From Syntrophaceae bacterium (GTDB lineage: Bacteria; Desulfobacterota; Syntrophia; Syntrophales; Smithellaceae): a stretch of 40,700 bases of DNA. The notes under the pieces are model-generated. The model was not told the DNA's origin. It worked only from the letters and a program-made list of their open reading frames with translations, and made no database searches. The position numbers and the translations under genes are program-made. The stretch spans positions 1-40,700 of the forward strand of contig PLNU01000138.1 in the NCBI GenBank assembly GCA_003142835.1. Direction: 5' to 3'. Below, in pieces: positions 12,012-20,225 of the stretch (positions within the stretch are counted from its first letter, which is position 1; each line of letters starts with the position of its first letter).

Positions 12012-15000
12012 TTACTTCACCCCCTTCTTCACAACATTAACCATGAAAGCTTTCGTCTCAGGTATCATGGTGTTGGCGTCGCCGATGGTCGAAGTCAAGA
12101 GATTCGCCGCATCACCGAAGGTATTGACTTCCGGCTTCTTATCATTAGGTTGATACTTCCTGTCGGCTGTCGTGATCCAGCCGTAATGCCAAGGTATACC
12201 GACCTCATGAATCGTATTTCCATCAATGTTAAATGGTTTAAAACGGGGAGTAACAATTGCCGTTGCTTCCACTTCACCACGCGCGGACTTGACTATACAT
12301 TTGTCACCGCCCGCGATACCTCTTTCTTTGGCCAATTCCTGGCTTAACTCCACAAACATACCCGGCTGCATTTCCGCAAGCCAGGGACACCAGCGGGTAA
12401 GAACGCCCGTCTGCCAATGTTCACTAACTCGATAGGTACTGCAGATGAAGGGGAACCGGGGATCGCAACTGGCTACACCGGAATAAACATCCAGATCGGA
12501 GCCTACTCCACTCGCGTCAAAACGTTTGATGACGGGGTTGTTCTTCTGAGGCGACATGATGTTCTTCTCCACGGGGCACTCCAGAGGTTCGTAGTGCTCG
12601 GGAAATGGTCCATCTACCAAACCCGGGCCATAGAGGCTGGCCACACCGTCTGGTTTCATAATAAATGGCGGTCTTCCTGAACCTGGATTGCCGACGCCAT
12701 CGGGAACATCACCGGTCCATTTTTCACCGTCCCATTTAATAACAGCACGGCTTGGATCCCAAGGTTTCCCGTTCAAATCCACGGAAGCACCATTGTAAAT
12801 TATACGGCGGTTGACAGGCCATGACCAGGCCCATTCGGAATAAAGGCCGATACCGGAGGTATCTTTCGTTCCTCTGCGCATAGCCAGATTACCCTTTTCG
12901 CCTACCGAACCACAATAAACCCAACAGCCTGACGAAGTGGAACCATCAGCCTGGAGCCAGGCAAAAGTCGGAACAAGATCACCCTTTTTAAATTCCTTGA
13001 ACTCACCTTTCTTTGTCGGGTTTTCCAGCCTCTTATTTTCCAAGAAGTAGCCATTAATCTCCTTGGCTACAGTCCGCGGATCATAGTGGAATTCATGACC
13101 CACTTTTTTGCCGTAGGGCCAGGTAAGTTTCGTTATCGCTTCTTTTCCCGGGCCGCCTTGCTTAGCATAGAGTTCCCGAACCTTGAAGTAAAGCTCACTC
13201 ATAATATCCCCATCGGGTTTGGATAAACCAACGGGACTTACAGCCTTGTAGCGCCATTGCATCAAACGGCTGCTATTAGCTATGCTGCCTTCCTTCTCAA
13301 TAGAGGAAGCACAGGGAAGCATGAATACCTCTGTTTTAATCTTGGCGGGATCCATTCCCGGGCCTCGCCAGAAGGAGCCGGTTTCGTTGTCGAACAGGTT
13401 GACGTTGACCATCCAATCGAGCTTGGTCATTGCCTGACGGGTTTTATTGGAATGGGCGCCGCTACATGCCGGGTTCATGCCCCAGGCAAAGAAGCCGGTG
13501 AACTTGTTTTTATACATCTGGTCGAAAATCATAAGCCAGGAGTAATTGGCACCGTCATCGAGTTTAGGCATGATTTGATAGGCATCTTCAATGGTCAGAT
13601 TTTCCCCATACATGGAACGCAGGAAACTTGCGGAATATTTGGGAGTATTTTTCCACCAGTTGAGGCTGTCCTTCTCCTTTGTTGTCGGTGTTCGTTTTTC
13701 ATTAAAATCTTTGAGTGTCTTGAGCGATGCCGTAGGAGCGCCTAGATAGCCGGGCCAGATATGGAAAAGAAGCCCGTGATCAGTAGAGCCTTGAACGTTG
13801 GATTCTCCTCTCATGGCCGCGACTCCGCCGCCGGCAATACCCATGTTGCCGAGAAGGAGTTGAATAATACACATCGTCCGAATATTTTGAACGCCCACGG
13901 TATGCTGGGTCCAACCCATTGCGTACAGCTCAACACCGGCCTTATCAGGCCTCCCTGTAGAGCCATAAATTTTGTAAACTTCCAGCAATTTTTCTTTGGG
14001 CGTTCCGGTAATCCGGGAAACAAGTTCCGGAGTATAACGGGAATAGTGCTTCTTCAGCAGTTGGAAAACGCAGTTTGGATCTGTAAGTGTCTTATCTTTT
14101 TTAATAACACCGTCCGCACCTGTCTGGTATGCCCAGGTGTCTTTTTCATACTTACCGTCCGTCAATCCGGAAAAGACTCCCTTGTTTTGTCCCGGCATTT
14201 TCAACGCCGGATTCACCAGGAAAGAGGCATTGGTGTAAGTGAGCACGTATTCATGCTGGATGAGGTTTTTCTCTAAAATATATTTGATCATACCGCCTAA
14301 GAAAGCGATATCGGTACCTGACCGCAGTGGGGCATAAAGATGAGCTTTAGCGGCCGATTGAGTAAACCGCGGGTCTACGCAGATCAGTTTTGCACCTCTC
14401 TTATCTATAGCCTCCTGAATCCATTTAAAAGAAATAGGATGGTTGGAAGCCGGATTGCTTCCCATAATCAGAATTACATCACTGTTTTTAAAATCATTCC
14501 AGGGATTGGTCATTGCGCCGCGTCCGAACGACTCTGCCAGAGCCGGTACAGTTGGGCTGTGTCAGATACGGGCCTGATGTTCAATATAGACCAGACCCAA
14601 CCCCCTTAAGAATTTTTGGTACGTAAAGCACTCTTCAAGATCCAGCGCGGCGCTGCCTACCGAGGCAATTCCTTCGGTGCGGTTGACAACTTCGCCCTTA
14701 TCGTTTGTCTTTTTAAAGCTGGCATCCCTGCTTTTCTTGACGTTTTTGGCAATTTTGTCTAACGCCCATTCCCATTCAACTTCCTTCCATTGGCTAGCAA
14801 AAGGCGCCCGGTAAAGCGGTTTGTCCAAGCGGTTCTCGTTGACAGCCATCTGATAGATAGAGCCGCCCTTGCTGCATAAAGAACCCTTGTTAATGGGACT
14901 ATCGGGGTCCCCCTCTGTATTGATGACCTTGCCATCGCGTACGGATACAATAATACTGCATCCCACAGAACAGTAAGGACAAACGGTGGTGGTTTCTTTA

Positions 15001-15119
15001 GCGTATTTGATCTTCAACGGCTGGGCATGCGCGGCTATCGGCTTCAGGCTTATGCCTAAACCGCTTACCGCCATTACGGCGCCGGATATCTTTAAGAAAC
15101 CTCTTCTGCTGACATTCAT
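12012..15119 (-). CDS. fdnG: Formate dehydrogenase-N alpha subunit, selenoprotein with Tat signal (in-frame TGA = Sec186)
   Basis: This 1035-residue molybdopterin formate dehydrogenase has the length of E. coli FdnG (about 1015). The N terminus is a twin-arginine signal, SRRGFLKISG followed by a hydrophobic stretch and AHAQ, so it works outside the cytoplasmic membrane. The [4Fe-4S] motif is CPYCSVGCS with the last cysteine in GSLCSKGG. The TGA at 14562-14564 (minus-strand sense) lies in EHQARI-U-HSPTVPALAESFGRGAMTN, the family's selenocysteine position followed by the catalytic histidine. A gene caller would split it into 185- and about 833-residue pieces. It lies 26 bases after the TetR gene and 1 base before fdnH. 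With fdnHI it would oxidise formate, or run in reverse during syntrophic growth; direction cannot be read from sequence. Confidence 0.94.
14534..14564 (-). promoter_or_regulatory. Selenocysteine codon and SECIS-like hairpin in fdnG
   Basis: After the TGA (14564-14562, minus strand) a hairpin can form with CTG-TA-CC (14551-14545) against GG-CAG (14538-14534) and loop GGCTCT. The TA bulge on the 5' side recalls the bulged U of bacterial SECIS elements, and the loop starts 17 bases after the TGA. The hairpin is weaker than that in fdhA and the loop is GCTC rather than GGTC. Confidence 0.6.
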
Positions 15120-19007: not shown

Positions 19008-20225
19008 CTAATCATAGCTTTTCATTTCAAATAACTTTTTGTTGTGAATGGATACGATGTGGTAAAATCTGTCTTGCGGAATGTATATGTAGGGAACATC
19101 TTCTTCACGCCGGTAAAGAAAATGAGAAAGAATCATCCTGTTTACGGCTTGATGTCCGATGATCATAATGTTGCCGGAATGCCGGTTCAAATGAAAGGCC
19201 TTCTTAATCCCCACCTCGATTCGCGGTTTCATTATTTCATAACTTTCACCATTGGGATATGCATAGTGGTATTTATCCGCTTCTCTGCCCTGGGATATTT
19301 GAGGCATTTTCTTTTCAATGCTCTTATATGTCATCCCTTCGCAAATACCGGCATTGATTTCATCAAATTCCTTGATGGGAATAATTGTGCAATCTTTTTG
19401 CTCTTCAGCGATTAATTGAGCCGTTTGCATCGTCCTTTTTTTACTGCTTGTAAAAATATAGGGCACTCTGAGCTTCTGGAAAAAACGTCCCAAAGACTGC
19501 GCCTGCGCGATTCCCTTCGAAGTGAGTGACGGATTACCTCCGATACGGTTGGCAATGTTATATCCTGTTTCTGTATGGCGGATAAGAAAAAGGTTCTTGA
19601 CCACATCAGTGACCAGATAATCCCTGATTCGGGGATAGAGACCTATCGTGTCGCCGTGCTTTTCCTCGAGTATCTTATTGTGCAGAGAATCCAGCCGCAC
19701 ATAGTTTCTCTCCACCTTCAGCGGCACATATACCAGGCGATAGTAATCAATCCGTTTTATAAATTCCGCTTTCGCAGTCTGGCGGTCGAGATGAGAAAAA
19801 TCAGGCAGTTTAGTCTTTTCCAATATGTTCAGGCTGAGTATTTCTTCGTCATCATTTATGCATTCAATAAAAAGAATAGGATAATCATCCAGGAACTCCT
19901 CGATCATTTTCCGCCGCTCCCGGCTGGCGTTGGTTGCATCAAGGATAGCAACCTGGCCTGAGTTGCGCAGATATGCCCTGGCCATCTTCATGTTGATTTT
20001 GGCAAATCCTTTTCTGGCCTCTACAGCTGAAGCGTTTTCGGGATGATAAAATCCCGACAGGGAAGTCTCCTGTAACGGTCTGTACATTCTCCGAAGGTTG
20101 CCATTATTAAATATTCTTGTGGGGATGCCATCTCTTCTGAAGGCTTCCCGCAAACGTACAGCCAGAGTTGATTTACCTCTTGCCGGCAAACCCATCATAA
20201 CAATATAAAGTTTTTCATCATTCAT
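19008..20225 (-). CDS. Bifunctional 6-phosphofructo-2-kinase / fructose-2,6-bisphosphatase-like protein
   Basis: This 405-residue protein has the two-domain order of the eukaryotic PFKFB enzymes. The N-terminal kinase has Walker A GLPARGKST (residues 12-20) followed by PTRIFNNGNLRR, very like the eukaryotic GLPARGKT and FNVGEYRR, then AILDATNASRERRK (about 93-106). The C-terminal phosphatase has LIRHTETGYN (His217), RIGGNPSLTSKG, DEINAGICEGMTYKSIE, YPNGESYEIM and IIGHQAVNRMIL, in the same order as in PFKFB. One difference is RHTE where PFKFB has RHGE. It would make and remove fructose 2,6-bisphosphate, but a different substrate is possible in bacteria. It lies divergent from the methylmalonyl-CoA mutase operon. 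Confidence 0.82.
   Translation of the reverse strand: MNDEKLYIVMMGLPARGKSTLAVRLREAFRRDGIPTRIFNNGNLRRMYRPLQETSLSGFYHPENASAVEARKGFAKINMKMARAYLRNSGQVAILDATNASRERRKMIEEFLDDYPILFIECINDDEEILSLNILEKTKLPDFSHLDRQTAKAEFIKRIDYYRLVYVPLKVERNYVRLDSLHNKILEEKHGDTIGLYPRIRDYLVTDVVKNLFLIRHTETGYNIANRIGGNPSLTSKGIAQAQSLGRFFQKLRVPYIFTSSKKRTMQTAQLIAEEQKDCTIIPIKEFDEINAGICEGMTYKSIEKKMPQISQGREADKYHYAYPNGESYEIMKPRIEVGIKKAFHLNRHSGNIMIIGHQAVNRMILSHFLYRREEDVPYIYIPQDRFYHIVSIHNKKLFEMKSYD

Follow-up and report, generated by a model that had tools for sequence, protein, structure and literature searches.

The 40,700-nucleotide stretch of Syntrophaceae DNA analysed here, which we call the window, encodes a protein that belongs to a lineage-wide bacterial clade of PFK-2/FBPase-2 proteins (PFKFB) and that is most likely a bifunctional enzyme, predicted to interconvert fructose 6-phosphate (F6P) and fructose 2,6-bisphosphate (F2,6BP). 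This assignment is based on the order of its domains, on homology over its full length, and on intact catalytic and substrate-contact residues in both halves. The N-terminal P-loop kinase would form F2,6BP from F6P and ATP, and the C-terminal histidine phosphatase would return it to F6P via a phosphorylated His217. F2,6BP would have a regulatory role; more tentatively, it might act on the F6P/F1,6BP step through class I FBPase and/or PPi-dependent PFK, and might in this way decide whether flux runs in the gluconeogenic or the glycolytic direction. The human enzymes carry an N-terminal extension that this protein lacks, so that control would be exerted by the concentrations of metabolites at its two active sites and not by phosphorylation of such an extension.

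Animals, plants and fungi form and degrade F2,6BP, a signal of sugar metabolism, with a bifunctional enzyme of this kind. A 2026 preprint describes PFK regulation by F2,6BP as apparently eukaryote-specific (PMC12873801), and a 2022 paper gives Desulfovibrio desulfuricans, citing the review by Rider et al. 2004, as the one bacterial exception (PMC9721465); bacterial occurrence is therefore not wholly new. The window probably comes from the same phylum as D. desulfuricans. Our searches of open-licence papers turned up no experiments on a PFK-2/FBPase-2 from bacteria, nor any description of a lineage-wide bacterial distribution with both active sites intact. An intact and widespread bacterial enzyme, a simple protein without an N-terminal regulatory extension, makes the eukaryote-specificity of F2,6BP control directly testable; if F2,6BP is a working signal in these bacteria, the circuit would not be specific to eukaryotes. 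The carriers also provide a bacterial group in which to trace the origin of the eukaryotic enzyme.

Domain layout and active-site residues

The first-pass annotation had described a bacterial protein with the domain order and motifs of PFKFB, and this description was borne out by the open reading frame, the order of Pfam domains, full-length homology and intact residues. A single minus-strand frame encodes 405 amino acids and a stop codon and contains the quoted motifs, with an N-terminal 6PF2K domain fused to a C-terminal histidine phosphatase (Table 1). Residues 5–390 align with human PFKFB2 at an E-value of 1.6e-64 (phmmer, PDB 5htk), a full-length similarity that is thus not due to chance. 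Among all solved structures, the top 14 matches are PFKFB or FBPase-2 chains (full-length E 1e-57 to 1e-64), and CobC-type phosphatases trail them, from 2.7e-11 on; the phosphatase half, too, is closer to PFKFB (E 8e-31) than to CobC (8e-12).

Table 1 Features of the PFKFB-like gene in the window (positions are those of the window; aa, amino acids of the encoded protein).
Feature	Position	Strand	Basis
Bifunctional PFK-2/FBPase-2 (PFKFB-like) gene, predicted	19008..20225	-	ORF, Pfam and PDB full-length matches; stop codon 19008-19010
6-phosphofructo-2-kinase domain, aa 2-216	19578..20222	-	PF01591 (6PF2K), 141.4 bits, cut-off 27
Fructose-2,6-bisphosphatase domain, aa 212-384, histidine phosphatase branch 1	19074..19592	-	PF00300 (His_Phos_1), 119 bits, cut-off 21.7 bits
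Walker A / P-loop GLPARGKS, aa 12-19	20169..20192	-	Alignment; same length as in human PFKFB
FNNGNLRR, aa 39-46 (FN-G--RR of PFKFB)	20088..20111	-	Alignment
RHTE catalytic motif, aa 216-219, His nucleophile H217	19569..19580	-	R216 and H217 in 66/66 bacterial sequences
R314...K318...Y329 segment, FBPase-2-specific substrate contacts	19239..19286	-	Kept in 66/66 bacterial PFKFBs and human PFKFB2/3
HQAVNR, aa 358-363, catalytic H358 and R363	19137..19154	-	Residue alignment

The protein shares with mammalian PFKFB1–4 not only the domain order but also, in the kinase half, the P-loop, FN-G--RR, DATN-x-x-RERR and KRI-x-x-Y, and, in the phosphatase half, RH-E, E289, R314/K318/Y329 and H358/R363. 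It is about 35% identical to the human enzymes and differs from the mammalian ones in starting without the N-terminal extension (its L6 aligns with position 39 of the PFKFB2 chain), in having N41 for L/V and N362 for M/L, and in a short insert before E289. The phosphatase half has its fold and RH...E...H chemistry in common with CobC and histidine phosphatase branch 1; all six CobC-like phosphatases compared keep the general catalytic positions but do not have G229, C295, R314, K318 and Y329. R363 is no clean separator, as the same six outgroups show D, S, Q, N, R and R at this position. As to membership of the CobC or phosphoserine phosphatase families, all NCBIfam matches fell well below their cut-offs, the best reaching 93.5 against 162.9 bits.

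We aligned the window protein and 39 of the other 57 carriers in its phylum, 40 bacterial sequences in all, with human PFKFB2 and PFKFB3. At 75 columns no more than one of the 40 bacterial rows deviates; most of these columns have the identical letter in both human proteins, and N40, G42, R45 and R46 are present in every bacterial row as well as in PFKFB2/3. The substrate-contact roles given here, including the contact of FN-G--RR with F6P, are those of the mammalian enzymes. We defined a kinase set of 13 positions (G12, G17, K18, R45, R46, R71, D96, N99, R104, R105, K137, R158 and Y162) and a phosphatase set of 13 (R216, H217, N223, G229, G230, R264, E289, C295, R314, K318, Y329, H358 and R363), and checked both in 66 of the 83 carriers found by our phylum and order searches. 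The kinase set, made up of residues of the P-loop, the catalytic site and the F6P contact, is complete in every one of the 66 bacterial sequences but that of locus L053, which has N99H (65 of 66); the phosphatase set, with FBPase-2 catalytic residues and contacts absent from other histidine phosphatases, is intact in all 66. Because the 26 positions had been picked after viewing the conserved columns of the first 40 sequences, the 26 sequences added later are the fairer test, and none of these departs from either set. Loss of the F6P-binding residues, which the first-pass annotation had named as grounds for rejecting the assignment, was not found, with FN-G--RR, R71, K137, R158 and Y162 all retained. 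PFKFB2 has the identical letter at all 26 positions, and PFKFB3 differs only at 264, where it has S.

These residues also bear on whether the protein uses the same fold and chemistry on another ketose or sugar phosphate, as a PFKFB relative with a new specificity. Such a shift would be compatible with the modest identity to the human enzymes, position 359 is split evenly between Q and R (33 each of the 66 bacterial sequences; Q in human PFKFB2/3), and any bacterial target of F2,6BP is putative; nevertheless, every other PFKFB substrate-contact position examined is kept in both domains, and we consider this alternative unlikely. Similarly improbable, in our estimate, is that the protein acts in vivo as a kinase only or a phosphatase only, like several fungal isoforms: monofunctional PFKFB proteins that retain both domains do occur in fungi (PMC9721465), but apart from the single N99H neither catalytic set has decayed in the 66 sequences, and R264 is kept. 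Both halves are conserved across homologues with 34–71% identity to the window protein, which points to selection on both functions, in line with a bifunctional PFK-2/FBPase-2.

Two sequence features had been put forward as possible signs of a changed balance of activities or a changed substrate, a suggestion that our comparison does not support. The P-loop, described as slightly longer, does not differ in length from that of human PFKFB, GLPARGKS (residues 12–19) aligning without gaps on GLPARGKT (45–52 of the PFKFB2 chain). The replacement of RHGE by RHTE is present, yet position 218 varies ordinarily within the family: 27 G, 11 T and 2 A among the 40 bacterial homologues, and 31 G, 27 T and 8 A among the 66. 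With a normal P-loop and T common at 218, neither feature suggests altered function.

Distribution and descent of the bacterial gene

A protein query (E ≤ 1e-20) of 395 genomes from the phylum found close homologues in 58, spread over ten families (f1, f20, f26, f37, f38, f44, f45, f54, f63 and f69), so that the view of F2,6BP signalling as mainly eukaryotic, from which the first-pass annotation had started, needs softening as far as the gene is concerned. The presence of the enzyme in these carriers suggests that they may use the F2,6BP signal too. A broader proposal, to which we give an even chance, is that F2,6BP is a working signal across a large anaerobic bacterial group, in which a patchily lost or exchanged enzyme would set the F6P/F1,6BP flux via FBPase, and via PPi-PFK where that is present.

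At the level of the order, 32 of 149 genomes carry the gene (29 in f1, the family with which the window groups, two in f121 and one in f117; two of the genes are fragments). Within f1 it is missing from 16 of 45 genomes, and its occurrence on an rpoB tree that covers 41 of them requires no fewer than seven changes, which indicates a patchy distribution through loss or exchange, with some absences possibly being gaps in draft genomes. We found no full-length match in 72,556 plasmid or 50,697 phage records, nor in viral contigs. In the phylum to which the genome of locus L003 belongs, 101 genomes likewise gave no full-length match, but one that covered the phosphatase only, and the search of the genome-contig collection gave a phosphatase match only. 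The only PFKFB found in family f117, 73% identical, lies on a 7.7-kb contig (G558:C38:160-1371; loci L119 and L225) of a genome with 6% contamination, and is a case of either transfer or contamination. The window's own genome has a second, weak 6PF2K match in a 528-aa frame (locus L002, G000:C70:4007-4375; 21.7 bits, below the cut-off), whose product is probably another P-loop kinase.

In a phylogenetic tree whose only eukaryotic rows were two animal sequences, 39 of the 40 bacterial sequences formed one clade with support of 100/100. Contamination or a recently acquired eukaryotic gene might be considered, given that PFKFB is best known from eukaryotes; however, the window gene lies on a 68.6-kb contig amid bacterial genes, and its relatives form a deep bacterial clade on contigs as large as whole chromosomes (G331:C1, 4.8 Mb; G014:C1, 2.8 Mb). 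This refutes recent transfer for the window and makes the explanation hardly credible. The divergent PFKFB of genome G359 (family f63; locus L073, 8067-9203) comes from the same phylum and has the bifunctional layout and intact residue sets of the window protein, but it is more animal-like, with 33.5% identity to the window protein against 38–39% to human PFKFB2/3, and occupies a separate long branch. G359 alone carries PFKFB among the seven f63 genomes in our FBPase list, and its gene suggests a second introduction.

The f1 group of the window falls together with f37 in the PFKFB tree (13 rows, 100/100) and nests within the f37 rows (97/91 at the node). The rpoB tree places f1 in its own order, apart from f37, and eight genomes of families f2–f6 in the phylum search are without the gene. 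Taken together, these observations make exchange of the PFKFB gene between the f1 and f37 lineages likely; loss in the order-mates of f1 is the alternative. A direction of transfer from f37 to f1 was considered and not retained, since monophyly of f37 is not rejected by an AU test (p 0.186). PPi-PFKs from f37 likewise cluster with those from the window's order (15 rows, 100/99), so that two sugar-phosphate genes link these lineages.

Candidate targets and genomic neighbourhood

A match to PF00316, the class I FBPase family, was present in all 58 carriers and in 171 of 337 non-carriers in the phylum; the naive p of 1e-15 ignores kinship and overstates the case, because the carriers are related to one another. 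All nine non-carriers checked in the window's own family or order have an FBPase too, so FBPase accompanies the PFKFB gene without predicting it. The FBPases of this order score about 111–130 bits (124 in the window's own genome) against about 205–245 in carriers outside f1. Given its co-occurrence, FBPase is the candidate target common to all carriers.

Besides this FBPase, the window's genome encodes two PFKs, with signatures GGED...PKTID and GGDG...PKTMD, the former being that of a PPi-type enzyme. Within the order, PPi-PFK orthologues (E ≤ 1e-90) accompany 27 of the 32 carriers, against 30 of the 117 genomes without the PFKFB gene; within f1, the counts are 24 of 29 and 5 of 16 respectively (p = 0.001, without tree control). 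For PPi-PFK as a partner, however, the rpoB tree (41 of the 45 f1 genomes) gave no significant signal, with about 1.6 pairs in favour and 0.4 opposite. The FBPase and PPi-PFK associations are thus both confounded by ancestry. Five f1 carriers (G250, G604, G605, G619 and G621) have no PPi-PFK orthologue, and G250 is without any PF00365 match. PFKs of carriers elsewhere can likewise lack the PPi signature (GGDGS in G014 and G301, GGEAS in G184). Bacterial PFKs would not be expected to have the known F2,6BP site of eukaryotic PFK-1.

In the window, the neighbours of the PFKFB gene are a YtfJ-like gene, methylmalonyl-CoA mutase with MeaB, a TetR regulator and a fused enoyl-CoA hydratase/3-hydroxyacyl-CoA dehydrogenase, surroundings that suggest fatty-acid or propionate metabolism; no neighbour in the window ties the gene to sugar metabolism. 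Comparison of 40 loci gave no conserved operon, as no family besides PFKFB was common to more than seven of them and no window neighbour recurred in four or more. A promoter-like site at 18982-18954 (11 of 12 matches), between the PFKFB stop codon and the YtfJ-like gene, suggests that the two may be separate transcripts, although a consensus match alone is no proof. In 10 of the 14 carriers of families f38 and f54, the PFKFB gene is preceded at a distance of 2.7–4.8 kb by a class I FBPase gene on the same strand (among the loci, L047–L049, L051, L053 and L054); in the other four, the FBPase gene is far off on the PFKFB contig (G033 and G132) or on another contig (G103 and G387). This proximity is weak evidence, since the families in between run in the opposite direction in the loci inspected.

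The window contains no Rfam or tRNA match. On its minus strand, at 12012-15119, lies a putative formate dehydrogenase-like gene, consisting of two in-frame open reading frames with one TGA between ...EHQARI and HSPTVPALAESFGRGAMTN, which is probably a selenocysteine codon.
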